A stretch of DNA of 37,287 nucleotides from Planctomycetota bacterium (GTDB lineage Bacteria > Planctomycetota > Planctomycetia > Planctomycetales > Planctomycetaceae): positions 1-37,287 of the forward strand of contig JAQCEJ010000051.1 of assembly GCA_027618475.1 (NCBI GenBank), given 5' to 3'. The notes under the pieces are model-generated. The model was not told the DNA's origin, did no database searches, and saw only the letters and a list, made by a program, of their open reading frames with translations. Of this stretch, positions 1,864 to 23,884 are shown piece after piece. Within the stretch, counting starts at the first letter, position 1. Every line of letters starts with the position of its first letter. The position numbers were made by a program, and so were the translations under genes.

Positions 1864-1934
1864 ACCAAACGATAATGTTTTGAAATCGTAATCGACAGGG
1901 GACACCCCCCTGAGAAATGTGTTGAGTTTGATCG

Positions 1935-3211: not shown

Positions 3212-3254
3212 AGCATTTGCCGGTTCGGCTGATAAAGAATAAGAATTAAGAATT

Positions 3255-4451
3255 ATGTCCGTCACATTAAAAATGGGTCGCCGATTGATGATGGAACCGG
3301 ATTTCCGGTTGTTCCTGAAGTTTGCCTACAACTTCGGGTACAAGGGAATGCGGTCGGTTCAACGGTTCAAGAAACGTCTGAAAAAAGGGGTGAGCTTCCC
3401 GCCGTTTCTTTATCTGTCGATCATTAATTCGTGTCAGTTGCGATGCCAGGGGTGCTGGGTCGATGTCGCCGCCAAACGGCAGATGATCGAACTCGACGAC
3501 CTCAACCGCATCGTTCTTGACGCCAAAGAACATGGCAACAGCTTTTTCGGGATTCTCGGTGGCGAACCGTTTATGCATCCGCAGTTGCTTGAATTTCTGG
3601 CGATGCATCCCGACTGTTATTTTCAGATCTTCACGAACGGTCAGTTGATTACCCCCGAAGTCGCCAAAGAACTTCGCCGACTCGGAAACAGCACGCTCCT
3701 CGTCAGTATTGAGGGATCGGAAATCGTCAGCAATGAGCGGCGCGGCGGTAAAGACGTGCTTAATAAAACGATGGAAGGCCTTAAGAACGCGATCGCAGAA
3801 CGATTGATCGTCGGTGTGGCGACCAGCGTTTGCCAGACGAATTACGAGCTGGTCAGCGAAGAATGGCTTAAGACATTGATCGACATGGGGGTCTTATATG
3901 CCTGGTTTCATACGTACCGGGTTGTCGGCCCCGATCCTTCGGCACATCTGGCTTTAACTCCCGAGCAAATCGTGACGTTGCGCCGTTTCGTTGTCGCCAT
4001 GCGTCGCAAATTGCCGATCGGGATCGTCGATGCGTATTGGGACGATAAAGGAGAAGCGCTCTGTCCGATGGCGACGGGGATCAGTCATCATATCGGCCCC
4101 TCCGGCGCCATCGAACCCTGCCCGATCATTCAATTCGCCAACGAAACCATTTACGATGACAAGCCGTTGTATCAGTTGATCACCGAGTCGAGTTTTCTCG
4201 ACGACTTCCGGAAAACCGCCGCCGAAGCGACACGAGGCTGCATCGTGCTGGAACGTCCCGATCTGGTGCGAGAACTGGTGCAACGTCATTCCGCCCCCGA
4301 TACGACGCAGCGAGGTACGGCACTTGCCGAACTCGAAGCATTAACCCCCCGCCATAGTCAACACCTGCCGGGACAAGAAGTCCCAGAAGATCATTGGTTG
4401 TATCGATTTGCCAAGAAGCATTGGTTCTTTGGTTTTGGTGCATATACTTGA
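3255..4451 (+). CDS. Radical SAM enzyme with SPASM/twitch-like C-terminus
   Basis: This 398-residue radical SAM protein has the cluster motif CxxxCxxC as SCQLRCQGC (Cys60, Cys64, Cys67). The SAM-binding GGEP is at residues 102-105. A second cysteine set near the C-terminus (Cys270 in GEALCPMATG, Cys289 in IEPCPII, Cys329 in RGCIV) looks like a short SPASM or twitch region for an auxiliary cluster. The basic, hydrophobic N-terminus (about 1-50) could favour membrane or lipid contact. Its place between a ferredoxin and a polyprenyl synthetase suggests it modifies an isoprenoid, a lipoyl group or a protein partner. The reaction cannot be read from sequence. HpnH-type hopanoid adenosyltransferase was considered, but its usual cluster spacing and hpn neighbours are absent. 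Confidence 0.8.
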   Translation: MSVTLKMGRRLMMEPDFRLFLKFAYNFGYKGMRSVQRFKKRLKKGVSFPPFLYLSIINSCQLRCQGCWVDVAAKRQMIELDDLNRIVLDAKEHGNSFFGILGGEPFMHPQLLEFLAMHPDCYFQIFTNGQLITPEVAKELRRLGNSTLLVSIEGSEIVSNERRGGKDVLNKTMEGLKNAIAERLIVGVATSVCQTNYELVSEEWLKTLIDMGVLYAWFHTYRVVGPDPSAHLALTPEQIVTLRRFVVAMRRKLPIGIVDAYWDDKGEALCPMATGISHHIGPSGAIEPCPIIQFANETIYDDKPLYQLITESSFLDDFRKTAAEATRGCIVLERPDLVRELVQRHSAPDTTQRGTALAELEALTPRHSQHLPGQEVPEDHWLYRFAKKHWFFGFGAYT

Positions 4452-4490
4452 TGTAATAGCCACGCCTTCCTTGATTCCATAGAGGATTCC

Positions 4491-6254
4491 ATGCAACAGT
4501 TGCCAGTGGTCGGACTGCCTGTTTTGAATATGCCGCGCCCCGTTCCTGTTCAGATCGAACGGCAGCCGAAAGAAAATATTCCGCAGACGCGCCCCGAACG
4601 GGAACAAATTCGGGCAGAGATACGCGAATTCGTGAAACAGCGCAAGCCGGTTCCCCCTCTGCGGGTCGACGAATTGCGATCGCTCTCCGAAGAGTTCGTG
4701 GCCCAGTTTCAGTTGAATCCGATTTATACCGAATACGTCGTCGTTTTGATGAACAGCGAAATGTGGCGCGATTCGCTCGCCGCCGTCCCTTACGAACGCC
4801 GGCTGTTGCTGTTGCCGAAGTGTCTGCGACTCGAAGAACGCTGCCCTGCCCCGTTTGACGAATTCGGACTCTTGTGCAAGCAATGCGGCCTTTGTTCGAT
4901 TCAAGACCTTCAGGCCGAAGCCGAACGATTGGGATATGCCGTTCTCGTCGCGGAAGGTTCGGCGCTGGTGATGGCCATCATCGAAACCGGCAAAATCGAA
5001 GCGATTGTCGGCGTCAGCTGTTTGTCGGTTCTCGAAAAGGCGTTTCCGTTCATGGAAGCCGCGGCGATTCCCGGCGTGGCGATTCCCCTGTTGCAGGACG
5101 ACTGCAAAGACGTCACGGTCGACCTCGACTGGATTTGGGAAGTTATTCATCTGACGAGCGACGACCGCACCTACCGCATGAACCTCGATAAACTCCGCGA
5201 AGAAGTGCAGACCTGGTTCTCCGAAGAGGAACTCAACCGCCTGATGGGGCCGGCATCGAACGAAACCGAGCGTCTCGGCCGCGAATGGCTTGCCAAAGAT
5301 GGGAAGCGCTGGCGACCGTTTCTCAGCGTCTGCGTGTGGAAGGCGCTTCAGGACGATCCCGATGCTGAAATCCCCGATGATTTGCGCAAGATCGCCATCG
5401 CCGTCGAATGTTTTCACAAAGCATCGCTGATTCATGACGACATCGAAGACAACGACGACCTGCGGTACGGTGATGCGACATTACACGTTTCGCACGGCGT
5501 GCCGATGGCCCTGAATGTCGGCGATCTGTTGCTGGGTGAAGGGTATCGGCTGATCGGCGAATGCGAGGCCGACCCCAAGCGCGTGACGGCGATGCTTCGC
5601 GTGGCGGCGATGGGACACCGCACTTTATGCCTGGGACAAGGAGATGAACTGAGCTGGACGCGGAATCCCCTGCCGATGTCATCGATGGAGGTCATGGATA
5701 TTTTCCGCCGCAAGACCTCCCCGGCATTCGAAGTGGCGTTACAGCTGGGGGCCGTACTGGGAGGGGGAGACGAGAAGCTCGCCTCGGTGCTTTCGCGATA
5801 CAGCAGCGCTCTGGGGATCGCCTATCAGATTCGTGACGACGTCACCGATCTCACGAACGGCGACGACCCAAGCGACCTGATGATGATGCGCCCGACATTA
5901 CCGTTGGCGTTGTTATTAGAGCGAACGGTGGCCAGTCCCGATGAAAAATCGCTGGTCGAAAAGGCGTGGCGCCGGCAAACCGACGATGCCGAGCTCGAAC
6001 AGATTCGCGATGCGATGACTGCGTACGATATCCCGAATCGCTGTCACGTGCTGCAAGAGTCGTACAAAGAAGAGGCGCTGCGGGCCTTGAGCGAATTGAA
6101 GAGCCCGAATCTCAAGGGATTGTTACGTCGTGTCGTCAGCAAGATATTCAGTCTCGAATTGAAAGGTTGGTGCAGTGAGTTTGAAGCTCGAAATGGCTCA
6201 AGTAGCCCGACTGGCGCCGAAGGTGCTGGGGAGCTCGACTTCGCTCGTCGTTGA
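4491..6254 (+). CDS. DUF116-polyprenyl synthetase fusion
   Basis: This 587-residue protein has two domains. Residues about 65-225 form a cysteine-rich DUF116-like domain with Cys111, Cys118, Cys129, Cys132 and Cys135, a plausible Fe-S or metal site. Residues about 235-560 are a trans-isoprenyl diphosphate synthase. The first Asp-rich motif is DDIED (316-320), the second is DDVTD (449-453), and KT is at 408-409. The residues four and five places before the first motif are small (Ser312, Ala311). In this family that usually permits products of C20 or longer. The 3' end overlaps the next gene by up to 80 bases, so the last 30 or so residues are probably not part of the fold. It should supply the prenyl diphosphate for the cyclase-like proteins that follow. 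Confidence 0.85.
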   Translation: MQQLPVVGLPVLNMPRPVPVQIERQPKENIPQTRPEREQIRAEIREFVKQRKPVPPLRVDELRSLSEEFVAQFQLNPIYTEYVVVLMNSEMWRDSLAAVPYERRLLLLPKCLRLEERCPAPFDEFGLLCKQCGLCSIQDLQAEAERLGYAVLVAEGSALVMAIIETGKIEAIVGVSCLSVLEKAFPFMEAAAIPGVAIPLLQDDCKDVTVDLDWIWEVIHLTSDDRTYRMNLDKLREEVQTWFSEEELNRLMGPASNETERLGREWLAKDGKRWRPFLSVCVWKALQDDPDAEIPDDLRKIAIAVECFHKASLIHDDIEDNDDLRYGDATLHVSHGVPMALNVGDLLLGEGYRLIGECEADPKRVTAMLRVAAMGHRTLCLGQGDELSWTRNPLPMSSMEVMDIFRRKTSPAFEVALQLGAVLGGGDEKLASVLSRYSSALGIAYQIRDDVTDLTNGDDPSDLMMMRPTLPLALLLERTVASPDEKSLVEKAWRRQTDDAELEQIRDAMTAYDIPNRCHVLQESYKEEALRALSELKSPNLKGLLRRVVSKIFSLELKGWCSEFEARNGSSSPTGAEGAGELDFARR

Positions 6255-7062
6255 TTTCTTTCATTCGCAACAGCAACCAGACGGCGGCTTTCCTGATCGT
6301 GCCGGCCGAAGCGACTTGTATTACACCGTCTTCGGCATCGAAGGATATATCGCACTTCAGCAGCCGTTACCGACGCAAAAGATCTACGAATACGTGCGTT
6401 CTGTCGGGGATCTCTCCGATCTCGATCTGGTGCATGTCTCGTGTCTCGCACGTTGCTGGTCGGCATTACCGATGGCCCTTCGGATGGAATGCCCGCGCGA
6501 TGCCATACTCGACCGAATGAAAAGTCACCGAACTCCCGACGGCGGTTTCGAATCGGCTGTCGACCAGCCGGCAGGATCGATTTACGCTTCGTTTATGGCG
6601 GTGGGAGCCTATCAGGATTTGAACGAACCGATTCCGGAGGTTGAGCGACTGCTGGACTTCGTCGAATCGCTGCAAGATCCGGGGGCCGGATTCAAAACCA
6701 GTCTCGCGCTCCCGATGTCGGTCGTTCCAGTGACCGCCGGAGCCGTGACGATGCTGCGTCATCTGGGACGGCGCGACGTCGATCCCGCGATCGGTGAGTG
6801 GATACTTTCGTGTTTCGATCCGCAGGGAGGATTTCGCCCCGCACCGAGTGCGCCGATTCCCGATCTGTTGTCGACGGCGACCGCATTGCATGCTCTGTCC
6901 GGTCTGAAAATCGATCTCGGAAAAGCGAAAGAATTGTGTCTCGATTTCATCGACTCCCTGTGGACGAACAGCGGCGGATTTTACGGACAATGGGACGATT
7001 CGCACGTCGATTGCGAATACACCTATTATGCTCTGCTCGCCCTGGGTCATCTCGCCATTTGA
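6175..7062 (+). CDS. Prenyltransferase-beta/squalene-cyclase-repeat protein
   Basis: This 295-residue all-helical protein is built of about five repeats with GGF cores: DGGFPD, DGGFES, GAGFKT, QGGFRP and SGGFYG. This is the pattern of the alpha/alpha-barrel shared by protein prenyltransferase beta subunits and squalene cyclases. The last repeat reads DCEYTYYALLALGHL, close to the prenyltransferase-beta pattern. I cannot identify a complete Asp-Cys-His zinc triad, so protein prenylation is not shown. The start is a GTG at 6175 (AAGG eight bases upstream) or the ATG at 6193. Either lies inside the preceding gene. It may bind a polyprenyl chain or act as a partner domain for the adjacent cyclase. 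Confidence 0.75.
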   Translation: MSLKLEMAQVARLAPKVLGSSTSLVVDFFHSQQQPDGGFPDRAGRSDLYYTVFGIEGYIALQQPLPTQKIYEYVRSVGDLSDLDLVHVSCLARCWSALPMALRMECPRDAILDRMKSHRTPDGGFESAVDQPAGSIYASFMAVGAYQDLNEPIPEVERLLDFVESLQDPGAGFKTSLALPMSVVPVTAGAVTMLRHLGRRDVDPAIGEWILSCFDPQGGFRPAPSAPIPDLLSTATALHALSGLKIDLGKAKELCLDFIDSLWTNSGGFYGQWDDSHVDCEYTYYALLALGHLAI

Positions 7063-8953
7063 AAGTCCCTTTGCCGTGAACGAGTCTTTCGTCGCCGACG
7101 TTGACGAACTTCTGAGCAACACGCGACAGACGTTGCTTGGAATGCGCGGCGACCACGGCCATTGGGAGGGAGAGCTTTCGTCGAGTGCATTGTCGACGGC
7201 AACCGCAGTGATGGCGATCGGAGAGTATTTGAATGCGGGCGAACATTCACACCCGCCGGTTGAACGCGAGTTGTTGCAACGGCTCGTCGATCGCGGATTG
7301 TCCTGGCTTGCCGAAACACAACTCGACGACGGCGGTTGGGGGGATACGGTTCTCAGTATTGCCAACATCAGCACGACGGCGCTAGTATGGGGAGCGTTTT
7401 CTCAGTCGGAGTCTCGGTACCGCGATGTCGTGAGCCGATGTGAAACATGGCTGCAGCGCACCGCCGGTTCGCTCGAATCAAAGCCGCTGGCCGAGGCCAT
7501 TACCCATCGATATGGCAAAGATCGCACGTTTTCGGTACCGATTCTGACGACGCTCGCTATCCGTAATCGATTAGGAGAACCGGCGGCGGCGTGGAAACTT
7601 GTGCCGCAACTGCCGTTTGAACTGGCGGCGTGTCCGCATCAATGGTTCGCGCGACTGAAGTTGCCGGTGGTGAGTTACGCTCTTCCGGCACTGGTCGCTA
7701 TGGGACAGGTCCGGCATGACCGACGCCCTTCGGCGAATCCGCTGTTGCGAATCCTCCGAAATCGCTTGCGACGACGAACGCTCGACGTTCTGACGTCGAT
7801 TCAACCGACCAGCGGCGGCTTTCTTGAAGCGACCCCTCTGACGAGTTTTGTCATGCTGAGTTTGATTCATGCCGGACTGCACGATCACGACGTCGTGAAG
7901 AGAGGATTGGCGTTTCTGATCCGTTCCGCACGCGAGGAGGGAAGCTGGCCGATCGATACGAATCTCTCGACATGGGTGACGACGTTGTCGATCAATGCCC
8001 TTTGTGCGAGAGGAACCATCGAAAACGAACTGAACACCGCTGAGACGTCGCAAATATTGAACTGGTTGACGGGACAGCAGTACCAGGTGGAGCACCCTTA
8101 TACTCATGCGGCTCCCGGTGCCTGGGCGTGGACTGACTTAACCGGAGGCGTTCCCGATGCCGACGATACGCCTGGTGCGTTGTTGGCTTTGTATCATCTC
8201 GCCGGACCGAACGACTCGACCACGAAAGCGGCGGCGGCCGGGATCACGTGGTTACTCGATGTTCAGAACAGCGATGGGGGCATCCCGACGTTTTGCAAAG
8301 GCTGGGGCACCCTCCCCTTCGACCGCAGCAGCGCCGATTTGACAGCACACGCCCTGCGTGCCTGGAACCGCTGGCACGATCATCTTCCTCGTACTTTGCA
8401 GATCCGTATTCATCATGGCATGGCGGCGGGTTTGAAATTCCTTAAGAAAAAACAACGTCCCGATGGTGCCTGGGCACCTTTGTGGTTTGGCAATCAGTTT
8501 GCTCCTGACGAGGAAAACCTGACATACGGTACCAGTCGAGTCTTGCTCGCACTGACTCGCATCGGCCACGCAAATTCCGAAAGTCCCGATGTGGCAACGG
8601 GACGCCAATGGTTATTCGATACACAAAATGATGACGGGGGATGGGGAGGCGCACCGCAGACCCCCTCTTCCATTGAAGAAACCGCCTTGTCGCTCGAAGC
8701 TCTTGCCGCCGACTCATCTAAGGACTTCACCGAAGCTGAATCAGCGGCGATTCAGCGAGGCATCCGCTGGCTCATCGAACGGACGAACAAGGGTCGAGAA
8801 TTCCCCCCCTCCCCCATTGGTTTCTATTTCGCCAAACTTTGGTACTATGAACAGCTCTACCCCATTGTGTACACACTTGCGGCGGCGGGGCGAATCCGTG
8901 GGTGGCTCGACCAAAAGCAACTGCCTGTGATTACGACGAAAAACGTAATATGA
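7028..8953 (+). CDS. Squalene-hopene cyclase-like class II terpene cyclase
   Basis: This protein has 641 residues, the usual length of squalene-hopene cyclases. The catalytic class II acid motif DxDD is present as DADDT (Asp377, Asp379, Asp380), in nearly the same position as in characterised bacterial enzymes. Several QW-type repeats are visible: QLDDGGWG, QNSDGGIP, QRPDGAWAP and QNDDGGWGG. The C-terminal PIGFYFAKLWYYEQLYP block is also typical of the family. The reaction would be protonation-initiated cyclisation of a polyprene, in the cytosol or at the membrane face. No squalene synthase is nearby and a long-chain prenyl synthetase is, so the substrate may be a polyprenyl compound rather than squalene. 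The ATG at 7028 overlaps the previous gene by 35 bases. A GTG at 7076 would avoid the overlap. Confidence 0.85.
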   Translation: MLCSPWVISPFESPFAVNESFVADVDELLSNTRQTLLGMRGDHGHWEGELSSSALSTATAVMAIGEYLNAGEHSHPPVERELLQRLVDRGLSWLAETQLDDGGWGDTVLSIANISTTALVWGAFSQSESRYRDVVSRCETWLQRTAGSLESKPLAEAITHRYGKDRTFSVPILTTLAIRNRLGEPAAAWKLVPQLPFELAACPHQWFARLKLPVVSYALPALVAMGQVRHDRRPSANPLLRILRNRLRRRTLDVLTSIQPTSGGFLEATPLTSFVMLSLIHAGLHDHDVVKRGLAFLIRSAREEGSWPIDTNLSTWVTTLSINALCARGTIENELNTAETSQILNWLTGQQYQVEHPYTHAAPGAWAWTDLTGGVPDADDTPGALLALYHLAGPNDSTTKAAAAGITWLLDVQNSDGGIPTFCKGWGTLPFDRSSADLTAHALRAWNRWHDHLPRTLQIRIHHGMAAGLKFLKKKQRPDGAWAPLWFGNQFAPDEENLTYGTSRVLLALTRIGHANSESPDVATGRQWLFDTQNDDGGWGGAPQTPSSIEETALSLEALAADSSKDFTEAESAAIQRGIRWLIERTNKGREFPPSPIGFYFAKLWYYEQLYPIVYTLAAAGRIRGWLDQKQLPVITTKNVI

Positions 8954-10098
8954 CGATCTATCTCGACTGCAATGCCACGACGCCGATCGATCCTCGCGTT
9001 CTGGCCGAGGTACACCGGTGTTTCGTCGAAGAAATCGGAAACGCCGGTAGCCCTCACGAATACGGCCTGAGGGCCAAACAGATCGTACACACGGCACGCG
9101 ACCAGATTGCCAGAATCATTGCCGCGAAACGAAACGAGATTATTTTTACAAGCGGTGCGACCGAGGCAAACAATCTGGCGATTCTCGGCCTTTTCGACCA
9201 TGGAGTTGCGTCGGGAAAACGGCATATCGTCAGCACGCAGATTGAGCATAAAGCCGTTCTCGAACCGCTGTCATACATGAAGAATCGCGGTTTTGACGTG
9301 ACGCTCGTTCCTCCCGCATCGAACGGCCGCGTTAATGCTGACGCCATTCTCGACGCCGTTCGGCCCGACACATTGCTCGTATCGATGATGCACGTCAACA
9401 ACGAAACCGGAGTGATTCAACCGGTCGCCGACGTGGCCGAGGGCCTGGCGTCGCCCGATCTCTTTCTGCACATTGACGCGGCTCAGGGGTTCGGCAAAGA
9501 TCTCGATCCGTTACGTCATCCACGCATCGATCTGATGAGCATCAGCAGTCACAAGATCTTTGGTCCCGTGGGAATCGGAGCGTTATTCGTCCGTCGTCGA
9601 CGCGATCGTGACATCCCTCTCACGCCGTTGATGCATGGTGGCGGACAGGAACTCGGACTTCGCCCCGGCACATTGCCGGTCCCCCTCATCAGCGGTTTCG
9701 GGCTCGCGGCAGAGTTATCGGCCGCCGAAGCCGACGCACGCCGCGTCGCGTGTCAGAACATTCGCGAACAGATCATCGCAGGATTATCCCCCTTGCAGCC
9801 GATCTATCACGGCGATGAAGCCGTGTCGCTGCCGCACGTCATTTCGGTTTCATTTTCAGGAATCGACGCCGACGAAGTCATCGAACTGCTGACCGGTGTG
9901 GCAGCGGTTTCTACCGGATCGGCCTGTACTTCGGTCTGCGCAACATCAAGTCATGTCCTTTCGGCCATGGGTGTCGCACAGCCCGAACTCGACGGTGCGG
10001 TTCGCATTTCCTGGAGTCATCGAACCGAGAGCTCGGAACTGCAAACCAGCATCCCGCAGTTTGTCGACCGCCTCTCCCGCATGATGTCGCCGCAGTGA
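8950..10098 (+). CDS. Cysteine desulfurase (NifS/IscS-type)
   Basis: This 383-residue PLP enzyme of the NifS/IscS group releases sulfur from cysteine as a protein persulfide. Visible residues are the cofactor lysine in SSHK (Lys202), the His in EHKAV (His100), Asp176 in HIDAAQ, and the catalytic cysteine in TGSACTS (Cys326). I start it at the ATG at 8950, whose first bases overlap the stop of the cyclase gene (ATGA). An upstream start at 8902 would add 16 residues lacking family resemblance. No IscU/SufU scaffold follows. The position at the end of the operon suggests local sulfur supply, either for the several Fe-S proteins upstream or for a sulfur-containing product or cofactor. The last choice is inference. 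Confidence 0.9.
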   Translation: MTIYLDCNATTPIDPRVLAEVHRCFVEEIGNAGSPHEYGLRAKQIVHTARDQIARIIAAKRNEIIFTSGATEANNLAILGLFDHGVASGKRHIVSTQIEHKAVLEPLSYMKNRGFDVTLVPPASNGRVNADAILDAVRPDTLLVSMMHVNNETGVIQPVADVAEGLASPDLFLHIDAAQGFGKDLDPLRHPRIDLMSISSHKIFGPVGIGALFVRRRRDRDIPLTPLMHGGGQELGLRPGTLPVPLISGFGLAAELSAAEADARRVACQNIREQIIAGLSPLQPIYHGDEAVSLPHVISVSFSGIDADEVIELLTGVAAVSTGSACTSVCATSSHVLSAMGVAQPELDGAVRISWSHRTESSELQTSIPQFVDRLSRMMSPQ

Positions 10099-10159
10099 CT
10101 TCAACCGACACTCGTCTGACCGCGCCGTAGAATAAAATCCCCTTGAATGCCGTCTCGTA

Positions 10160-11950
10160 GTGCCCTATTATGAAACGAGGCGATTCGAACTTCGATTGCG
10201 GACGAGTCCCTCTCTTAATTCGGGCTCACTTTTACACATCTGGCTTCGAATGACTCGATCTCGCAGTTTTTATTGTGCTCGAACGGCGGCAGGGATAACG
10301 GTCCAATCTTCGCACCGATCGCGACTGGCATTTCGCCGTGCTCGGGAACTTCGCGGACAGCCTTTGAATCGCCGCGTGCACATCTGGTTTAGACAGCACC
10401 GCGATGATATTGTCGCGTGTGGCGTCAGTGCACTGGCCCAGGTTGTCTTTCTGCTCTTTCTCGGACTGATCATTTTTCGATTGGGAGATGGCCGAACGAC
10501 GATAAATTCACTTTCAGAGAATGCGATTGATGCGAAGATCGGCGACAACGAAGTGGTGGAGTTTTCGGAACCGATTGCACGGGAATTGAACGAAGCCCGA
10601 AACGATCATGCCGAGTCGAGTGAAATCGAGATCGCCCGTCAGCTCTCTGAACTCATGACCGACGTCGAGACTAAAGTCTCGTTGAATCATATTCCGATGA
10701 CGCAGGCGAAAGTGTCCGACGCAACCAAAGCAAAACAGGATCCCGCGTCAAAGAACACATCGGTTCGGACATCCCGGTCTCGAAACCAGCAGACGGATGA
10801 CGGATCCGAACGTCTCGCGGCACAATTCGCGGCTCGCCATGCCGACGCACGGGGAGCGTTCGTCGAAGCCTACGGCGGCAACGCCAAGAGCGAGGCAGCC
10901 GTCGATGCCGGACTCAAATGGCTGGCAGCCCATCAGAGTTCGAATGGGAGCTGGAGTTTCGACCACACGACGGCGGAGTGCAACGGCTCGTGCGGCGATC
11001 CGGGGATGTTGCACGATTGCCGCATCGGCGCCACAGGGATGGCGTTGCTGGCCTTTCTTGGATCGGGGCGGACGCACCGCGAAGGGGAATATCAAAAAGA
11101 AGTGGGTGAGGCGATCGACTTTCTGCTCGACAACATGAAATGGGACGCCGACGGTAACGGCCTCGATCTCCGCGACGGTTCTATGCCGATGGCGTCGTTC
11201 TACGTGCAAGGCATCGTCAGCATGGCATTGTCGGAAGCCTACGTCATGACCTCCGATCGGCGGTTACTCAAACCGGCACAGGGAGCGATCGATTTCATCG
11301 TCTGGGCGCAAGACCCGCGCGGAGGGGGATGGAGATACCGTCCGCAAATGCCCGGCGATACCTCGGTCGTCGGCTGGCAGGCCATGGCGCTGACCAGCGC
11401 CCGCGTCGCCGGGCTGAAAGTTCCTTCCAAAACGCTAACTCAATCGCTGCAGTTTTTAAAAAGCGTTGAAACCAAGCAAGGGATCGGTTACGGATACACG
11501 AATCGCGTGGCCCGGCCATCCACGACAGCGATCGGATTTCTATGCCGCATGTACCTCGAACCGAACCCTCCCCGAAAGACATTTCAGCGGGGTGCAAAAC
11601 TGCTCGGCAATTTCGGTCCTTCCTATGACGACATGTACTACAACTACTACGCGACGCAGTTCATGCATCATTACGGCGGACCGGAGTGGGACAAGTGGAA
11701 TGCATCGATGCGCGATTGGCTCATCGAAACGCAAGAAACGCGCGGACACGCGGCGGGTAGCTGGAGCCCTCGCGATCTTCATTCCCGTGCCGGAGGGAGA
11801 TTGTACATGACGACGATGGCGATTATGACGCTCGAAGTTTATTATCGCCATCTCCCTCTTTATCAACACGGGACCGAACGCCCGGAACTTCCGGATATCG
11901 AGTACGAACTCGATCGGCTGAGGGAAGCCGAGGCATCCACCGACGAGTAA
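10160..11950 (+). CDS. Membrane-anchored prenyltransferase/squalene-oxidase-repeat protein
   Basis: This protein of up to 596 residues has one transmembrane segment (about 88-107, rich in Val, Leu and Phe). An acidic linker follows (about 110-215), then a squalene-cyclase-type helical repeat region (about 225-560). Repeat cores include SSNGSWSF, DPRGGGWRYRPQ and GIGYGYT. No DxDD motif is seen, so it is probably not a cyclase. Proteins with this plan are frequent in planctomycetes and their function is not known to me. The start is uncertain: GTG at 10160 gives a long basic N-terminus, and the ATG at 10250 (Met31) is an alternative. It lies 61 bases after the cysteine desulfurase and may or may not belong to that operon. 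Confidence 0.75.
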   Translation: MPYYETRRFELRLRTSPSLNSGSLLHIWLRMTRSRSFYCARTAAGITVQSSHRSRLAFRRARELRGQPLNRRVHIWFRQHRDDIVACGVSALAQVVFLLFLGLIIFRLGDGRTTINSLSENAIDAKIGDNEVVEFSEPIARELNEARNDHAESSEIEIARQLSELMTDVETKVSLNHIPMTQAKVSDATKAKQDPASKNTSVRTSRSRNQQTDDGSERLAAQFAARHADARGAFVEAYGGNAKSEAAVDAGLKWLAAHQSSNGSWSFDHTTAECNGSCGDPGMLHDCRIGATGMALLAFLGSGRTHREGEYQKEVGEAIDFLLDNMKWDADGNGLDLRDGSMPMASFYVQGIVSMALSEAYVMTSDRRLLKPAQGAIDFIVWAQDPRGGGWRYRPQMPGDTSVVGWQAMALTSARVAGLKVPSKTLTQSLQFLKSVETKQGIGYGYTNRVARPSTTAIGFLCRMYLEPNPPRKTFQRGAKLLGNFGPSYDDMYYNYYATQFMHHYGGPEWDKWNASMRDWLIETQETRGHAAGSWSPRDLHSRAGGRLYMTTMAIMTLEVYYRHLPLYQHGTERPELPDIEYELDRLREAEASTDE

Positions 11951-15824: not shown

Positions 15825-15892
15825 GTGTTTCCACATGCTACCTCCGGAATCGGCTTAATTCTGCTGGAGAATCTCGCCCCCCCTTTCAATAG
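15779..15892 (+). CDS. Possible 37-codon leader ORF overlapping the acyl-AMP ligase start
   Basis: An ATG with a strong AAGGAG site opens a 37-residue frame (MRFAHSTTLTEG...). It ends at TAG 15890-15892, about 65 bases inside the ligase gene and in another frame. The ligase has its own GTG at 15825 with GAGGGG ten bases upstream. The peptide has no recognised motif. It may be a translated regulatory uORF, or the good ribosome-binding site may be chance. Confidence 0.25.
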   Translation: MRFAHSTTLTEGRCFRVSTCYLRNRLNSAGESRPPFQ

Positions 15893-17465
15893 CGGGGAAC
15901 TTCATTCACCACGCACTGATTCCGTCGATTCGCAGAACCTGGGATTGAAGTTTTTACAAATCGCGCAGCATCGTGGATCGGCTCCGCTGGTCACCACGAA
16001 TGATGCGACCTATTCGTATTCGTCGCTAAGTGCCGCCGCCCTGAGTTTGAGCCGCCAGATTCGGCCGCCGAAGTCTTCGTTCGACACCCCCGGCGAGCGG
16101 GTGATCTTGCTCTTGCCGAATTCGCCGGAATACATCGCGGCGTTTTACGGCGTATTGCTGGCAGGCCAAGTCGTTGTTCCCGTTGCTCCGAAAATCGAAG
16201 CGGAGACGTTACGGCGAATCGTTGAAACGACAGACGCCAAATTCATTATTACGACGCCGAATATTCTCCGAACACGGCCCGATTTGCAGTCTCTTCACGC
16301 TCAGGTTTTTCAGAATACGAATGAAATCGACGGGGATGAGACTTCTGCTGTCGGCATATCGTCAAATGCAAACGACGCAAATGGCGACAGCCGTCTCGCC
16401 GCGATCTTCTTTACCGGCGGATCGTCGGGTACCCCTAAAGGAGTGATGCTCAGTCACCGAAATCTGATGTCGAATGCCCATTCAATTCGGCAATATCTCG
16501 AGATCACCGAAGCGGATAATCCGTTGTGCATCTTGCCTTTTATGCATGCCTTCGGCAATTCGGTATTGCAATCGCACGTTCTGGCAGGGGCGAGGCTGAC
16601 GATCGCGGGAAACACGGCTTTTCCGCAAACGATTGTTGCCGGCTTGAAAGATCATGCCTGCACCAGTCTGTCGGGCGTTCCCGATCTCTTCCGCATGTTG
16701 ATGTCGAGAAGTTCTCTGGGACGAATCCCACTTGGCGATTTACGTTATATGGCGGTCGCCGGTGGTGCGCTTCCTCAACAGCACGCACAGGAACTGGCTG
16801 AAAAAATTGCACCCAGCCGTTTTTTTGTCATGTACGGTCAAACTGAAGCGACGGCTCGGCTGGCGTATGTCCCTCCCGAACAGCTGCACGACCGCCCCGA
16901 CGGAGCCATTGGACAACCGGTTCCCGGCGTTACGTTGGAAATCGTCAATCAGGACGGGAACACCGTCGCGCCGGGAGAGATCGGCGAACTGAGAGCGCGT
17001 GGTCCCAACATCATGCTCGGCTACTGGTCTGATCCCGACGCAACCTCCGAGCGAATTCGTGACGGCTGGTTGTACACGGGAGATCTCGCCACTCGTGACG
17101 AACACAACAGGATCGTTTTGCGGGGACGCAGCAGTTCGTTCGTGAAAATTGCCGGTTTTCGCGTGCATCCTCAGGAACTCGAAGAATTTGCCGTTCGCCG
17201 TTTTGAAGCCGACCAGGCGGTGGCCGTACCGTTTGACGGAAGCATCGGTACCCGTCTCGGATTGTTCCTGAAATTCGTATCGGAATCGATCCCCGATCTG
17301 TCCGAAGTTATCGCGACCTGCCGCGCCGAATTACCACATTACCTGACCCCGGAAGTGATTCAAATCGTCGACGATTTTCCGTTGAACCACGCGATGAAGA
17401 TCGATCGGCCGGCATTGGAGAATCTTGCGCAGCAAACCCTCTTACAACGCCGCATTTCCGCCTGA
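15825..17465 (+). CDS. Acyl-AMP ligase (ANL superfamily adenylate-forming enzyme)
   Basis: This 546-residue adenylating enzyme activates a carboxylic acid with ATP and passes it to CoA or a carrier thiol. The P-loop is FFTGGSSGTPKG (195-206). YGQTEA is at 337-342, YTGD at 417-420, and the hinge region KIAGFRVHPQE follows at 441-451. The C-terminal catalytic lysine is in AMKIDRP near residue 533. The GTG start is supported by GAGGGG at 15809-15814, ten bases away. The ACP gene begins 34 bases after its stop, so loading of that ACP is the simplest role (fatty acyl-ACP ligase or fatty acyl-AMP ligase type). CoA ligase activity is the alternative. Confidence 0.85.
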   Translation: MFPHATSGIGLILLENLAPPFNSGELHSPRTDSVDSQNLGLKFLQIAQHRGSAPLVTTNDATYSYSSLSAAALSLSRQIRPPKSSFDTPGERVILLLPNSPEYIAAFYGVLLAGQVVVPVAPKIEAETLRRIVETTDAKFIITTPNILRTRPDLQSLHAQVFQNTNEIDGDETSAVGISSNANDANGDSRLAAIFFTGGSSGTPKGVMLSHRNLMSNAHSIRQYLEITEADNPLCILPFMHAFGNSVLQSHVLAGARLTIAGNTAFPQTIVAGLKDHACTSLSGVPDLFRMLMSRSSLGRIPLGDLRYMAVAGGALPQQHAQELAEKIAPSRFFVMYGQTEATARLAYVPPEQLHDRPDGAIGQPVPGVTLEIVNQDGNTVAPGEIGELRARGPNIMLGYWSDPDATSERIRDGWLYTGDLATRDEHNRIVLRGRSSSFVKIAGFRVHPQELEEFAVRRFEADQAVAVPFDGSIGTRLGLFLKFVSESIPDLSEVIATCRAELPHYLTPEVIQIVDDFPLNHAMKIDRPALENLAQQTLLQRRISA

Positions 17466-17499
17466 TTTCAATTTGACGTTATTGCCATGGAGTCCTCGA

Positions 17500-17763
17500 A
17501 TGAACCAATCGACCGTCGAAAACAAACTGATCGACTTTTTGAAATTGTCAACCGGCCAAACGACGATTGACGACTCGACCGACCTGCTCGAAGCGGGTCT
17601 TATCGATTCTTTAACGATGATGGATCTGATCGTCTTCGTTGAATCCGAATTTCAAACCGTCATCGAGTTCGGCGACTTGACACCCGAAACGTTTCGGACT
17701 CCATCGACGATCGCACAACTTGTCATGACACGGAACACAACTCTCGAAAAGAAGGTGGCATAA
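17500..17763 (+). CDS. Acyl carrier protein
   Basis: This small acidic helical protein has 87 residues from the ATG at 17500. The phosphopantetheine attachment motif is AGLIDSLTMMDLI, with Ser37 as the attachment site (DSL). The length, the acidic helix 2 and the LLEAG lead-in are typical of discrete ACPs of secondary pathways. It follows the acyl-AMP ligase directly, which probably loads it, and precedes an E2-type acyltransferase. It could therefore be the meeting point of two acyl sources: ligase-activated acid and 2-oxoacid-derived acyl. No phosphopantetheinyl transferase is in the window. A longer upstream start (17425) would run inside the ligase gene and lacks family support. Confidence 0.85.
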   Translation: MNQSTVENKLIDFLKLSTGQTTIDDSTDLLEAGLIDSLTMMDLIVFVESEFQTVIEFGDLTPETFRTPSTIAQLVMTRNTTLEKKVA

Positions 17764-17886: not shown

Positions 17887-18786
17887 ATGTATTGGCCGAC
17901 AACTTCGACTCCTGTTCCTCTGGAAGACTTGGGGTGGATCAACGCCAGTTATCTGGGGAGCGCCACGCCGCATTCCGATCCCTATCTGATCTGGGGGACG
18001 AACGTCGACATGGAAGCGATGGAACCGTTTCTGGCCGAAATGCGCAAGACGACCCGGTCGATTGTTTCTACGGCTCATGTTCTCGTCTGTGCCGTCGCTT
18101 CGAGTTTGCGAGATCACCCGAATGTCAATCGGCGCGTGATCGGCCGTCGCGTCTATAACTATCGAAATGTGAATATCGTTATGCCCATGCTGGAAACCAG
18201 CACGGGCGAAGTCGACTCGATATATGTGCGTGCCGCCGATGAGCTGTCGTTGAAGGAGATCGCCGCCCGATTTTGGGAAGAGGCGCGTCAGCGTGCCGTA
18301 TTGAAGTCGCGTCGACAAACCGAACCGTCGAACTCGAAATGGGCTCGCTGGGATCGCCTGAAACGAGCCCTTCATCTGAGGTGGGTTCATCGGATGTCCC
18401 GTGTCGGCTTTTTTCTGGCGAATCGCTTCCGCCTTCCCGTGATGTGGGATTGGGAACAGGAATTAAATGCCGCCGGTGCTTTTGTGAATTATCTCGGTTC
18501 GCCGGGTGCCCCTCCGCTTATCAACCACAAGCTCGCCTCGCTCCCCATGAATTCGTACTCCGTCGCGGTGACATTGGGACCGATAGAACCGCGACCGGCT
18601 GTGGTCGATGGTGCCGTCGTCGTCCGTAAAGAAGCCTCGCTGTTCGTGCGTGTCGATCATCGGTTCGTCAACGGACATCAGGCCGGCGAGTTCGTCAAGA
18701 CATTGCGATCGTTTTTAGCCAATCCGCACACATTGGTTTGCTCAAGCTTCGCATGCACAAACGATGTGCAACAACGTGCCGCATGA
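17887..18786 (+). CDS. Stand-alone 2-oxoacid dehydrogenase E2 catalytic-domain acyltransferase
   Basis: This 299-residue protein resembles only the C-terminal catalytic (CAT-fold) domain of dihydrolipoamide acyltransferases. There is no N-terminal lipoyl domain and no peripheral-subunit-binding domain. The catalytic motif near the end reads DHRFVNGHQ: His258 is kept, while the usual Asp of HRxxDG is Asn262. NYRNVNIVMPML and a basic, hydrophobic insertion (about 140-190) are other visible parts. In normal complexes this domain moves an acyl group from lipoyl to CoA. The lipoyl domain that would feed it is on the 1154-residue protein downstream. I infer transfer from that lipoyl arm to the ACP or CoA. 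The Asp-to-Asn change may alter activity or substrate. Confidence 0.75.
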   Translation: MYWPTTSTPVPLEDLGWINASYLGSATPHSDPYLIWGTNVDMEAMEPFLAEMRKTTRSIVSTAHVLVCAVASSLRDHPNVNRRVIGRRVYNYRNVNIVMPMLETSTGEVDSIYVRAADELSLKEIAARFWEEARQRAVLKSRRQTEPSNSKWARWDRLKRALHLRWVHRMSRVGFFLANRFRLPVMWDWEQELNAAGAFVNYLGSPGAPPLINHKLASLPMNSYSVAVTLGPIEPRPAVVDGAVVVRKEASLFVRVDHRFVNGHQAGEFVKTLRSFLANPHTLVCSSFACTNDVQQRAA

Positions 18787-18933
18787 TACGTACGTGAATG
18801 CTCGACACACGGTTTTCGTGTACTGACCCGCTCGATCGGCGTGTAAGCCGTTCACCACCACGACATTACTTTGATAGACACCTCGAGCTGGACGTCCCAC
18901 AACCGAGCTGTCGCAACAATTAGACAGTCCAAC

Positions 18934-20178
18934 ATGACCGCAATCGCACACTCCGGTTCCTCCTGGCTGCTCAACAATAATGTGAGCGTGTTCAAAACGT
19001 ATGCCGACTTGGACGGACAGCATCGATTACGTCTTGAACAGATGGCGTTCGAATACGGGCGCTATTCCGAATCGTACCTGATCACCGAACCGAATCGATC
19101 GTATCTCTGGTCATCATGCGGCAATGGTGTCGTCGGGTTCGTCAACTATAATGGCCACATCGCTGTGGTGGGGGGACTGATTACCCCCGATGAGAACAAA
19201 CTCCGATTTCTCAATGAAATCTCTGAATTTGCGCGATTGAACAAAAAGCGCGTGATGTTCTTTCACATCGATGATCACGATGCTTGTTACTTCAACCAGG
19301 CAGGCTATCAGGTGACGAATTTCGGCGTCAACGCGCATATTCCTCTGGCGGATCACAGCTGGAATGGAAAGGCGTTTGAGTGGGTCAGGCGACAGTTCAA
19401 CTTCGTCAGCCGTCACGGTGTTGCGTTCGAAGAATGGTCGGTACAAGATTCGACACCGGCAGAGTGGGAACAGCGAATGGCGGAACTTCATGAAGTTTCG
19501 GACGAACATATCGGCGCCAAGCATTTTCGCGGCGAGATTCCATTCTTCGAAGGGCGATTGATTAACGACCATCTCCATCGCCGCAGGTGCTTCGTGGCGC
19601 GGGCTGACAACGGAGCGGGTCGTGTCGAGGGTTTTGTGCTTTGCACGCCTCTCAACGGTGGACGTCAGTGGGCCATGGAAATGTATCGACACCGAGTCGA
19701 TGCCGTGCGCGGAGTCATTCCCTTCTTGATGCACCAGACCATTGGTCGTCTGAAGGCCGAAGGATGCGACGGCGTGTCGATGTGCCCTGTTCCCGCGATC
19801 GGATGTGACATCAAGCGCCCGGGAGACTCGTTTATTGCACGCACTGCGTTGACGCTGTGGAACCGACTGGGGAGTTCGCTGTTCGATACGAACGGCCTTT
19901 ACCACTATAAGAGCCGATTCCGTCCCGAATTTTCAAATATGTATTTATGCTCGTCTTCAAATGTCAGCGTGATGAGCATCTGGGCCTACCTGCGAATTAC
20001 GGATGCGTTCAATCTGAAAATCGGTGCCTTCCTGAAAGACATGATTCACCTGTTGAATCCTCAACGGCGAACACTTGCCAAACCAGTTCTGACGCCGCAA
20101 CCAACCTTTTTATCTGAATTACCGGTATCACCGACTACGGTCCCCGCTGCTGTTCCTGCAACGTCTAAAGCAGCCTGA
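18934..20178 (+). CDS. DUF2156/LPG-synthase-C-type transferase
   Basis: This 414-residue protein (from the ATG at 18934) resembles the DUF2156 family, the tandem GNAT-fold domain also found at the C-terminus of MprF lysyl-phosphatidylglycerol synthases. The most telling part is GLYHYKSRFRPEFSNMYL (about 327-344), with the K-F-P pattern usual near the family's end. DGVSMCPVPAIG lies shortly before it. There are no transmembrane helices, so it is the soluble catalytic unit only. Such folds transfer aminoacyl or acyl groups to amines or lipids. In this operon an acyl- or aminoacyl-transfer that joins the acyl chain to an amino compound is plausible. A TTG at 18871 would add 21 residues. Confidence 0.7.
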   Translation: MTAIAHSGSSWLLNNNVSVFKTYADLDGQHRLRLEQMAFEYGRYSESYLITEPNRSYLWSSCGNGVVGFVNYNGHIAVVGGLITPDENKLRFLNEISEFARLNKKRVMFFHIDDHDACYFNQAGYQVTNFGVNAHIPLADHSWNGKAFEWVRRQFNFVSRHGVAFEEWSVQDSTPAEWEQRMAELHEVSDEHIGAKHFRGEIPFFEGRLINDHLHRRRCFVARADNGAGRVEGFVLCTPLNGGRQWAMEMYRHRVDAVRGVIPFLMHQTIGRLKAEGCDGVSMCPVPAIGCDIKRPGDSFIARTALTLWNRLGSSLFDTNGLYHYKSRFRPEFSNMYLCSSSNVSVMSIWAYLRITDAFNLKIGAFLKDMIHLLNPQRRTLAKPVLTPQPTFLSELPVSPTTVPAAVPATSKAA

Positions 20179-20301: not shown

Positions 20302-20419
20302 GGGGCTTCAGCGAATATCGAGGCATTTTCGCCTGAACTCGACCCTGACTGTCGAGGGGATCAATCGTTGATCAAGTTCGTTGGGTGTTCGATTTTTTGC
20401 AAACGATTGTATTTTCGTA

Positions 20420-23400
20420 ATGATTAATGATTCCAAAGGCCGGAAAACACCTGTTGCACACGCAGCCGATTCTGCCGATGCCTCCCCGGTCAAGAGAAGC
20501 GCGAAGGTGATGCCGTCGCGCGACCAGTTGTCGTGCCACCTGTACCACTGGATGTCTCTCGCTCGCGAGATCGACCGGGTTGAGCAGGAACTGGTTCAAC
20601 AGGGGAAAGCGTTTTTCCACGTTTCAGGCGCAGGACACGAGGCGTCGGCGGCGCTGGCTCGACATCTCACACCTGCCGACTGGTTACACCTTCATTACCG
20701 AGACAAAGCGCTCTTGCTGGCGCGCGGTGTGCCGCTGATTGAATTGTTTCTCAGTCTGCTTGGGAAAGAAAATTCCCATTCCGCCGGACGGCAGATGAGC
20801 GCTCATCTCAGCGCGCCCGAATTGAATGTGCTGAGCATGGTCGGGCCTGTGGGTAATAATGCACTGCAGGCTGTCGGTGTCGCCGCCGCGATAAAAAATC
20901 GGCCGGGAAATCCCTTGGTCGTCTGCTCTCTGGGAGATGGCACAACGCAAGAGGGGGAATTCTTCGAAGCTGTTGCAGAAGCGGTCCGCAATCAACTTCC
21001 GGTTCTGTTCCTGATCGAAGACAATCAACTGGCGATCTCGACGAAAACGTCTCAAAAGACGTTTTTCTCTCTTCCTTCGGGAAAAGGGAGCGAGTTGTTT
21101 GGCGTCCCCGTCGAATTCATCAACGGCAGCGATCCGATCACTGCCGATACCTGCTTCGAGAAATGCGTCGACTCGATTCGAAAGACGCGAGGTCCGGTGA
21201 TCGCGGTCCTGGAAGTCGCACGCCTGGCCGATCACTCCAATGCCGACGATCAATGCCAGTATCGCGATCTCGATGAGATCGCCGATGCGTTCACCGAATA
21301 CGATCCCATCGCTAACCTGAAACAACAGCTTTTTGATGAGGGAATGACGCCGGCCGAGTTGGCACACGCCGATCGATTGGCTTCGCAAGAGGTGGCTGAA
21401 GCGGCCAAAGACGCGATGGCGGCAAACGATCCTCAGCCCATCTTTACGGCGAAATCAGAACTTCCTCAACTGCTGCGTACTCGAGCCGAATATCGCGGCA
21501 ACAACCACTCGCGAAAATCCACCATGCGCGAGGCGATGAACGCCGTCATGCGTGCGCGGCTTGAAAAAGACCCTCGCGTTTTTCTTTACGGACAAGACAT
21601 CGAAGATCCGAAAGGTGATGTCTTTGGGGTCACACGCGGACTCAGCCGGGACTATCCCGATCAGGTCAAAAATTCGCCGCTCTCCGAATCGACCATTGTG
21701 GGGACCAGCATCGGCCGAGCCATTGCCGGCGAACGGCCTGTTGCGTTTATTCAATTTGCCGACTTTCTGCCGATGGCTGCCAACCAGATATTATCTGAAC
21801 TGGGAAGCATGTTCTGGCGGACGCAAGGGGGATGGCAATGTCCGGTCATTCTCATGATCACCTGCGGAGGGTATCGCCCGGGATTGGGACCGTTTCATGC
21901 ACAGACGCTCGAAACGCTGGCGTTGCATACGCCGGGCATCGACGTCTGCATGCCCTCGTCGGCGGCCGATGCGGCGGGACTGCTCAATGCGGCGTTCGAT
22001 TCGCCGCGGCCGACGATGTTCTTCTATCCGAAGTCGAGTTTGAACTCGCTTGATGATGCGACGTCGACCGATGTGGAAGCTCAATTCGTCCCGTTTGGGA
22101 GGGCGCGCGTCATCCGCGAGGGAACCGACATCACGTTTGTTACGTGGGGAAACCCCGTAGTTCAATGTGGTCAAGCGGCCAAGACCCTTTCTGATGCCGG
22201 GTATTCGGCGGAAATTCTCGACTTGCGCTCACTCTCTCCGTGGGACGAAGAAGCCGTATTCGCCTCGGTCGAAAAGACGCGGCGGCTCGTCGTGGTTCAC
22301 GAAGATAATATCACATGCGGATTTGGTGCGGAAATTCTGGCCCGCATGGCAGAGCGATCAACCGTCGCACCGATGATGCGCCGCGTGGCGCGTCCGGACG
22401 TGTATGTCCCTTACCATTTCGAATCTCAGCTCGAATTGCTTCCCTCTTATCGTCGAATTCTGGAAACTGCCGCCGATATGCTCGATGTCGATGTCACGTG
22501 GGAACGTCCCATCCTTTGCGAATCGGGTCTGGCGGTGATACAGGCGATGGGTTCGGGGCCAGCCGACGATGCCGTGACCCTGGAGGCGATTCACGTGCGC
22601 GTCGATGAAATGGTCGAACCTGGCCAACTCGTCGCCGAAATCGAAACGACCAAATCGATTATCGAAGTCGTTTCAACCGTAGCGGGACGTATCGATGAAA
22701 TTCTGGTGACCGAAGGAGAGACGGTACGAGTCGGGCAGACGTTGATGACCGTGCAGACGTCCGAAGGGGACTCCGGTCATAACCCCGCCACCCGTGAAGA
22801 CCCCGGGATTCCCCATCTCAAACCACGTATAACTGTATCTAAAAAGCGGCCGTCTTCTCATTTATCCAAGAATCGAAATATTCAATGGACGGAATCCGAC
22901 AAGGCTCACACCGCAAACGCGACCATTGTCGGACTCAGCGGCGTGACCGGAGGACGACTCGTCACAAACGACGAATTACTGAAACATCATGCCGGTCGTA
23001 CGTCGGACGATATCTACGCACGAACGGGAATCGAGTCGCGGTTCTGGGCAGAAAAAAACGAAACCTCGTTATCGCTGGGAGTTGACGCCTGTCGGGTCTT
23101 GATCGAACGGACGGGGTTCGACCTCGATCGGCTGACGCTGGCGATCGCCTGCACCACCACGCCGACACAGATCACGCCGTCGCTTGCCTGTCGAGTGCTC
23201 GCGGCACTTTCCCCGCAGCGATCCGACGCGTGTGTTGCGGCCTACGACATCAATGCCGCGTGTTCCGGATATCTGTACGCATTACAGACCGCATGGGATC
23301 ACCTGCAACATCAGCCTGATGGTTACGTGTTGCTGGTGACTTCAGAAGTGTTGTCGCGATTGCTCGACATTCATGATTTCAGTTCGGCGTTTTTGTTCGG

Positions 23401-23884
23401 CGACGCGGCGACGGCGACGCTCATCGCTGGTCCGGCGACTGAACCGCTTCCCCGTTCAGCCGGACATGGCAAGATGTCATTCGAAAGGCCGGTCCTTTCC
23501 GGCAGAGCAGAAGATGGTTCGGTGCTGTCGGTTCCGCTAATGGATCAGGGTTGCATCAAACTCAAAGGAGAAGCCGTTTATGACGAAGCGGTTCGCTCGA
23601 TGATTCGCGTTCAGACCGAGGCGTGCGTGGCTGCGGGAATTCCACTCGAATCGCTCACGCAGATTATTCCTCACCAGGCGAACGGGCGCATCCTGAAAGC
23701 CATCGAGTATCTGACGGGACGTTCGGTCTTCAATCATATGCGCAACCTCGGCAACACGTCATCCAGTTCGATTCCATTGGCCTTACGCGCGTTCTTGAAG
23801 ACCGCACCCTCCGGTGATCGCGTCGGACTATGCTCGTTCGGCGGTGGATTCACATATGCCGCTGCTGTCGCAGAAGTCGACTGA
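20420..23884 (+). CDS. E1alpha-E1beta-lipoyl-KAS III fusion enzyme
   Basis: This 1154-residue polypeptide has four recognisable units. Residues about 35-345 are 2-oxoacid dehydrogenase E1alpha, with the thiamine diphosphate motif GDG (172-174) through Asn202. Residues about 366-690 are E1beta (SESTIVG with Glu423; FHAQTLETLALHTPG with His493 and His503). Residues about 705-782 are a lipoyl domain with Lys745 in ETTKSI. Residues about 832-1154 are ketoacyl-ACP synthase III with the Cys948, His1085 and Asn1112 triad (AACSG, IPHQANG, GNTSS). Together these predict decarboxylation of a 2-oxo acid, capture of the acyl group on the lipoyl arm, and use as a condensation starter. No E3 gene is near. 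A TTG at 20381 could extend the N-terminus by 13 residues. Confidence 0.9.
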   Translation: MINDSKGRKTPVAHAADSADASPVKRSAKVMPSRDQLSCHLYHWMSLAREIDRVEQELVQQGKAFFHVSGAGHEASAALARHLTPADWLHLHYRDKALLLARGVPLIELFLSLLGKENSHSAGRQMSAHLSAPELNVLSMVGPVGNNALQAVGVAAAIKNRPGNPLVVCSLGDGTTQEGEFFEAVAEAVRNQLPVLFLIEDNQLAISTKTSQKTFFSLPSGKGSELFGVPVEFINGSDPITADTCFEKCVDSIRKTRGPVIAVLEVARLADHSNADDQCQYRDLDEIADAFTEYDPIANLKQQLFDEGMTPAELAHADRLASQEVAEAAKDAMAANDPQPIFTAKSELPQLLRTRAEYRGNNHSRKSTMREAMNAVMRARLEKDPRVFLYGQDIEDPKGDVFGVTRGLSRDYPDQVKNSPLSESTIVGTSIGRAIAGERPVAFIQFADFLPMAANQILSELGSMFWRTQGGWQCPVILMITCGGYRPGLGPFHAQTLETLALHTPGIDVCMPSSAADAAGLLNAAFDSPRPTMFFYPKSSLNSLDDATSTDVEAQFVPFGRARVIREGTDITFVTWGNPVVQCGQAAKTLSDAGYSAEILDLRSLSPWDEEAVFASVEKTRRLVVVHEDNITCGFGAEILARMAERSTVAPMMRRVARPDVYVPYHFESQLELLPSYRRILETAADMLDVDVTWERPILCESGLAVIQAMGSGPADDAVTLEAIHVRVDEMVEPGQLVAEIETTKSIIEVVSTVAGRIDEILVTEGETVRVGQTLMTVQTSEGDSGHNPATREDPGIPHLKPRITVSKKRPSSHLSKNRNIQWTESDKAHTANATIVGLSGVTGGRLVTNDELLKHHAGRTSDDIYARTGIESRFWAEKNETSLSLGVDACRVLIERTGFDLDRLTLAIACTTTPTQITPSLACRVLAALSPQRSDACVAAYDINAACSGYLYALQTAWDHLQHQPDGYVLLVTSEVLSRLLDIHDFSSAFLFGDAATATLIAGPATEPLPRSAGHGKMSFERPVLSGRAEDGSVLSVPLMDQGCIKLKGEAVYDEAVRSMIRVQTEACVAAGIPLESLTQIIPHQANGRILKAIEYLTGRSVFNHMRNLGNTSSSSIPLALRAFLKTAPSGDRVGLCSFGGGFTYAAAVAEVD

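Follow-up and report, generated by a model that had tools for sequence, protein, structure and literature searches.

A single-chain E1-lipoyl-KAS III protein of Planctomycetota as a candidate starter ketoacyl synthase primed by 2-oxo acids

Introduction

When a 2-oxo acid supplies the starter unit of a fatty acid, must the acyl group pass through coenzyme A (CoA) on its way to the ketosynthase? The standard route releases the acyl group of a 2-oxo-acid dehydrogenase as acyl-CoA, and the branched-chain fatty acid route through the Bkd complex and FabH uses separate proteins with an acyl-CoA intermediate. The question is raised anew by a gene at 20420-23884 (+) in the window, by which we mean the whole stretch of 37,287 nucleotides analysed here (contig JAQCEJ010000051.1 of the Planctomycetota assembly GCA_027618475.1). 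In one chain, this gene encodes the alpha and beta units of a 2-oxo-acid dehydrogenase E1, a lipoyl domain, and a unit of the beta-ketoacyl-acyl carrier protein synthase III (KAS III, or FabH) type, an arrangement from which a first-pass annotation had predicted direct handover of the acyl group. Searches of open-access literature (subscription papers and preprints were outside their scope) turned up no description of such a protein; the one paper returned, PMC7448341, is by its abstract on mammalian complexes. The parts of the protein are known; their arrangement and the predicted lipoyl-to-ketosynthase transfer appear to be new.

Results

Domain order and key residues of the window protein

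The gene is one intact frame of 1154 amino acids (aa) from the ATG at 20420, with no internal stops, inside an open reading frame (ORF; 20381-23884, +) that opens at a TTG at 20381. Along the protein, Pfam placed E1_dh, Transket_pyr, Transketolase_C, Biotin_lipoyl, ACP_syn_III and ACP_syn_III_C, in that order and each above its own curated cut-off (Table 1). For the first two units the nearest solved chains were Thermus 2-oxo acid dehydrogenase subunits, and for the last they were KAS III enzymes (FabHs). By Pfam, the lipoyl-bearing chain contained no E2 acyltransferase core, and no E3-binding domain was reported in it. The first-pass annotation had stated that all four units keep their key residues, and this is borne out, since GDG172-174, Asn202, Glu423, His493, Lys745, Cys948, His1085 and Asn1112 were invariant in all 10 aligned copies, the window's included; the target Lys was also present in a lipoyl-domain alignment of 36 proteins. 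The linker between the lipoyl domain and KAS III was 33-61 residues long (median 41; 53 in the window protein). It carries a conserved short REDPGxPxL-like stretch at window residues about 791-802, where Glu793 and Pro798 were invariant in 10/10 copies, perhaps as a docking motif.

Table 1. Coordinates of the fusion, its units and the genes upstream of it in the window
Feature	Position	Strand	Basis
E1alpha-E1beta-lipoyl-KAS III single-chain enzyme, 1154 aa	20420..23884	+	ORF, Pfam, NCBIfam, alignment
E1-alpha unit, aa 44-340; thiamine site GDG172-174 and Asn202	20549..21439	+	Pfam E1_dh (2.6e-40), invariant residues
E1-beta unit, aa 367-542 and 560-672; Glu423, His493	21518..22435	+	Pfam Transket_pyr (aa 367-542, 1.1e-24) and Transketolase_C (aa 560-672, 1e-30), invariant residues
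Lipoyl domain, aa 721-777; predicted lipoylated Lys745, codon 22652-22654	22580..22750	+	Pfam Biotin_lipoyl (1.9e-10); Lys conserved
KAS III / FabH-type unit, aa 832-1152; Cys948 (23261-23263), His1085 (23672-23674), Asn1112 (23753-23755)	22913..23875	+	Pfam ACP_syn_III (aa 942-1003, 3.5e-17) and ACP_syn_III_C (aa 1071-1152, 1.1e-15), NCBIfam, FabH alignment
AMP-dependent acyl ligase, likely same operon	15825..17465	+	Pfam, NCBIfam
Acyl carrier protein; likely start at internal Met, residue 26 of the frame	17425..17763	+	PP-binding 3.5e-06
Lone divergent E2-type acyltransferase without lipoyl domain	17887..18786	+	2-oxoacid_dh 3.5e-16
LPG_synthase_C-like (MprF C-terminal type) protein, likely same operon	18871..20178	+	Pfam, NCBIfam

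Recurrence of the fusion

A frame or assembly error joining separate genes would be one explanation of such a chain. The genome (5.93 Mb) is assembled in 218 contigs, the window being contig 81, and one relative is itself split, with E1 and lipoyl-KAS III of G1001 (L169) in overlapping frames in what looks like a frameshift. Against this, the same domain order was found in 34 single chains from 33 genomes, spread over seven families (f1, 6; f67, 11; f2, 10; f5, 4; f120, f132 and f134, 1 each) and two classes, and four of these genomes (G993, G995, G1041 and G807) are each one contig. Moreover, the ratio of nonsynonymous to synonymous substitution (dN/dS) was 0.04-0.46 for each of the four units in six close pairs, a seventh pair being saturated or failed. 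Because the domain order recurs, we rejected an artefact, to which we give next to no chance. The fusion is real, recurrent and under selection, and neither the joining error nor the solitary occurrence that the first-pass annotation had allowed for is what we found.

Because the samples overlap and their thresholds differ, counts of its spread are not prevalences: the full fusion was found in 5/170 genomes of the window's family, one of them with two copies (6/170 matched at threshold, the sixth with E1 only), in 5/392 genomes of a phylum sample (12 matched, the other 7 belonging to family f50), in 5/298 genomes of the class of G503, and, by profile search, in 20/397 genomes of the window's class (29 matching in all), while in family f67 12/51 genomes matched (11 long, one cut at a contig end). 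A contig scan with six window-specific peptides returned 22 loci, all E1-type relatives with no KAS III in the matched frame, a result that is no measure of absence. For the comparisons below, the set of 36 lipoyl-linked KAS III proteins comprised the 34 single chains, the split L169, and L170. L203 turned up after this count and stands outside it, G794, in which the E1 part alone is present and reaches a contig end, was left out of the fusion count, and L109 and L110 touch contig ends. One genome, G086, carries two fusions (L049 and L052), which branch at separate places in the E1 tree. In G138, a 203-aa E1-alpha fragment (L048:6213-6824), 68% identical to window residues about 58-215, lies just upstream of a full fusion as a broken duplicate.

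KAS III in the place of the E2 core

Of 53 E1 sequences placed in a tree, the 35 that belong to the KAS III form (34 and the split L169) grouped as one clade, with support of 100/100. The sister of this clade among the sampled rows was formed by E1-lipoyl-E2 chains of family f50 (99/97). At seven f50 loci, E1alpha-E1beta-lipoyl is followed by an E2 core; six of these (L041 and L057-L061) are single chains, one of which is truncated by the end of its contig, and correspond to a one-protein E1-E2 of a 2-oxo-acid dehydrogenase, and in the seventh, L062, the tail after the lipoyl domain lies in an overlapping frame. Our E2 model was built from five of the seven f50 loci, so that the f50 matches to it hold by construction; Pfam 2-oxoacid_dh confirmed the core for L059, and the other f50 chains were assigned by hidden Markov model. 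The same E2-core model matched 0/36 lipoyl-linked KAS III proteins. The f50 chains therefore resemble the window protein in their order up to the lipoyl domain and in their E1 sister clade, and differ in ending in a 2-oxoacid_dh core where the window protein has KAS III. Since the fused E1 clade is sister to chains ending in an E2 core, KAS III sits where E2 normally sits. The simplest reading would be that E2 core and KAS III were exchanged for one another behind a shared lipoyl domain.

Active site of the lipoyl-linked KAS III domains

We aligned the 36 KAS III domains to E. coli FabH, whose numbering is used here. The catalytic triad (Cys112, His244 and Asn274), Thr37 and the docking residue for acyl carrier protein (ACP), Arg249, were kept in 36/36, and position 257 was Lys or Arg in 31/36. 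According to passages of PMC4606726, Trp32 and Arg151 of FabH sandwich the adenine of CoA. Neither residue was found in any of the 36 domains: position 32 was Asp in 29, Glu in 4, Met in 2 and Tyr in 1 (or a one-residue gap, depending on the alignment), and position 151 was Phe in 24, Leu in 7, Pro in 4 and Tyr in 1. In contrast, both residues were present in 29/29 lone KAS III controls chosen as best matches to the f3 protein described below. In a first control set, of 16 lone KAS III proteins from fusion-bearing and f50 genomes, Trp32 was present in 13/15 readable sequences and Arg151 in 9/16. At least one gene (G223 C3) belongs to both control sets, and the sequences are related, so none of these residue counts represents independent events.

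Position 87 was Thr or Ser in 34/36 domains, and passages of PMC3734052 associate a small residue there with long acyl groups in known FabHs. From this position and the E1 similarity we would guess, weakly, that the 2-oxo acid substrate is probably branched-chain or otherwise bulky. Two other features were set aside. Shortened loops at the mouth of the KAS III tunnel were dropped, as the spacing across FabH positions 160-207 was 45-59 in 35/36 and 89 in one, compared with 47 in E. coli FabH, and residue 28 was not used as a marker, as it depends on the placement of a one-residue gap in the alignment.

A second lipoyl-KAS III lineage

In G949 of family f3, lipoyl-KAS III is encoded by a gene of its own (440 aa), which begins three bases after a distant E1alpha-beta gene; G504 of the same family has the same pair, with identities to G949 of 61% in E1 and 62% in lipoyl-KAS III. 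In the KAS III tree (computed without the truncated lone KAS III L091), the G949 domain fell on the lone-KAS III side, apart from the 35 others (branch 100/100), and 0% of bootstrap trees united all 36 domains. Its E1 also lay outside the fused clade. Both rows were flagged as long branches, so their exact placement is unsure, and the best reading is two separate pairings. A search with the f3 lipoyl-KAS III protein matched 163/392 genomes; among the matches listed, G504 alone covers the lipoyl part, and none of the others begins before residue 50.

Neighbourhood of the window fusion and its genome

In the window, genes for an AMP ligase, an ACP, an E2-type acyltransferase, an LPG_synthase_C-like protein and the fusion follow one another on the plus strand. 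The E2-type protein contains an HRFVNG stretch, which we take to stand where E2s usually have HRxxDG. Genes for DUF1501, DUF1549, DUF1553 and 'Planctomycete cytochrome C' proteins also lie nearby and suggest an origin in Planctomycetota. Besides the fusion, the genome carries a lone FabH and further E1-type genes. Lipoylation and reoxidation of the arm could be served by its lipA and by one lipoamide dehydrogenase that passed the curated cut-off. A lone FabH above the curated cut-off was found in 9/9 fusion-bearing genomes searched, and also in 3 f50 genomes; because all nine have it, the fusion is an addition and not the housekeeping enzyme. Apart from these genes, the window holds at 281-11950 (+) an unusual, terpenoid-looking cluster. 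It encodes a GcvH-like lipoyl protein, a CobW-type GTPase, a ferredoxin-type protein and a radical SAM protein, then a DUF116-polyprenyl synthetase fusion, prenyltransferase/squalene-cyclase-like proteins and a cysteine desulfurase.

Neighbourhoods of related fusions

Scans at related loci covered part of the neighbours. The most extended form is L168:8535-14363 (G1044), where one 1942-aa chain runs from E1-lipoyl-KAS III into a ketoreductase (KR; 1337-1518) and a PP-binding domain (1625-1683). At L155 the order is the fusion, a 114-aa ORF, a 3beta-HSD-family gene, a FabF-like ketosynthase, an ACP, two amine-oxidase-like genes, a FabA-like dehydratase and an enoyl-reductase-like short-chain dehydrogenase/reductase. 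In family f67, a FabF-like ketosynthase was grouped by BLAST beside the fusion in 7/11 loci, and Pfam confirmed it in both that were scanned; the six closest of these proteins have Cys and two His at ketosynthase-like positions, which we assigned on what we take to be the usual ketosynthase motifs. An ACP gene overlaps the 3' end of the fusion at L050 and L051, a DUF433 ORF and then an AMP ligase-ACP follow it at L049, and a fatty acid desaturase and a weakly matched methyltransferase accompany it at L048. Carrier, ketosynthase, KR or dehydratase functions accompany the fusion in part of the loci.

Other neighbours were noted in passing. An AbiEi/AbiEii-like toxin-antitoxin pair follows the L168 chain. 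In genus g286 (L054, L104, L105 and L106), a large DUF6537 gene with a sub-threshold POR match directly adjoins the fusion in four loci and is perhaps a keto-acid ferredoxin oxidoreductase. Stieleriacine clusters were considered as a known home of the gene and set aside, as the available passages of PMC12479983 and PMC7293339 mention no pyruvate dehydrogenase, ketoacyl, lipoyl or fusion protein.

Discussion

We consider it fairly likely that the window protein is an E2-less starter ketoacyl synthase primed by a 2-oxo acid. The E1 half would decarboxylate the 2-oxo acid on thiamine diphosphate and reductively acylate the chain's own lipoyl arm at Lys745. The arm would then reach the KAS III unit, where the dihydrolipoyl thioester would pass its acyl group straight to Cys948, and the acyl-Cys948 would condense with a malonyl-type carrier-protein thioester to give a beta-ketoacyl-ACP, from which a dedicated fatty-acid or polyketide chain may start. 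Reoxidation of the arm would fall to a lipoamide dehydrogenase (E3) encoded elsewhere and acting in trans.

Each part of this proposal has a known counterpart. As in 2-oxo-acid dehydrogenase complexes of the pyruvate or branched-chain keto-acid type (E1 alpha2beta2), the chain has E1-alpha and E1-beta units with thiamine-site residues and a lipoyl domain with its target Lys, but it has KAS III instead of an E2 core and no Pfam E3-binding domain. Its KAS III unit shares with FabH the Cys-His-Asn triad and Arg249, and has FabHs as its nearest solved chains, but it is fused behind a lipoyl domain, is without Trp32 and Arg151, and falls below the NCBIfam cut-offs. The overall chemistry predicted for it, from 2-oxo acid to beta-ketoacyl-ACP, is that of the Bkd-FabH route, with the difference that here it would be carried by one chain without an E2 core and probably without CoA.

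The combination of decarboxylation, swinging arm and condensation in one chain, proposed in the first-pass annotation, fits all the sequence evidence. Its further claim, that the acyl group is handed over without free acyl-CoA, gains indirect support because the E2 core and the adenine clamp are each found in 0/36 and because a second family encodes a lipoyl-KAS III protein that was put together separately. The claim stays a prediction, and we consider that the lipoyl arm probably passes the acyl group directly to KAS III.

Several observations weigh against our proposal. Residues 832-1152 match FabH-type synthases below the cut-offs (NF006829, 215.5 of 249 bits; TIGR00747, 182.4 of 292.1); Lys214 of the ACP patch is Lys or Arg in only 6/36; and no fatty-acid genes were seen among the one or two neighbours scanned at each of L153, L156, L160, L162 and L167. 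Arg151 alone is a weak marker, as it is absent from 7/16 lone KAS III proteins of the first set, the FabH of the window's own genome (Gln) among them. Finally, the E2-type gene at 17887-18786 lies two genes upstream of the fusion, probably in the same operon, and Arg36, a further CoA contact, is kept in 27/36. Both would fit a detour in which the fused enzyme is the same but the acyl group reaches KAS III through CoA or ACP charged by the separate acyltransferase, and the fusion merely keeps the steps close. We regard this as quite improbable, because Trp32 and Arg151 are both missing from all 36 domains, KAS III takes the place of E2 behind the lipoyl domain, and the window's E2-type gene had no BLAST relative in the other fetched fusion neighbourhoods.

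The condensation partner is a separate matter. Transfer from the lipoyl arm to KAS III might occur as proposed and yet be followed by condensation with a different carrier-bound chain, such as the neighbouring AMP ligase might load, or by mere transfer to ACP without condensation. The AMP ligase and ACP beside the window fusion, the ligase-ACP at L049, and the fact that no malonyl-specific gene was seen among the neighbours scanned all fit this alternative, which we nevertheless think unlikely, since the FabH-type triad is complete in 36/36 and both the KR and ACP in the L168 chain and the ketosynthase-ACP-dehydratase-reductase cluster at L155 fit a beta-keto product that enters elongation.

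Returning to direct handover with malonyl-type condensation, we lean, by a modest degree of belief, toward a broader proposal: that these proteins represent a new kind of chain start, from lipoyl arm to ketosynthase Cys without E2 or acyl-CoA, which was assembled at least twice (in the fused clade and in the f3 gene) and was extended in one lineage to an E1-lipoyl-KAS III-KR-ACP megasynthase. If KAS III does act in the place of E2, keto-acid oxidation would be linked directly to the initiation of fatty acids or polyketides, and with direct handover the starter unit would stay out of the CoA pool. The fusion would then also be a ready-made module for starter-unit engineering. A KAS III that lacks the adenine clamp of FabH and adjoins a lipoyl domain may serve as a sequence marker for further cases, and the finding prompts one to ask which lipids or natural products the fusion helps these bacteria to make.

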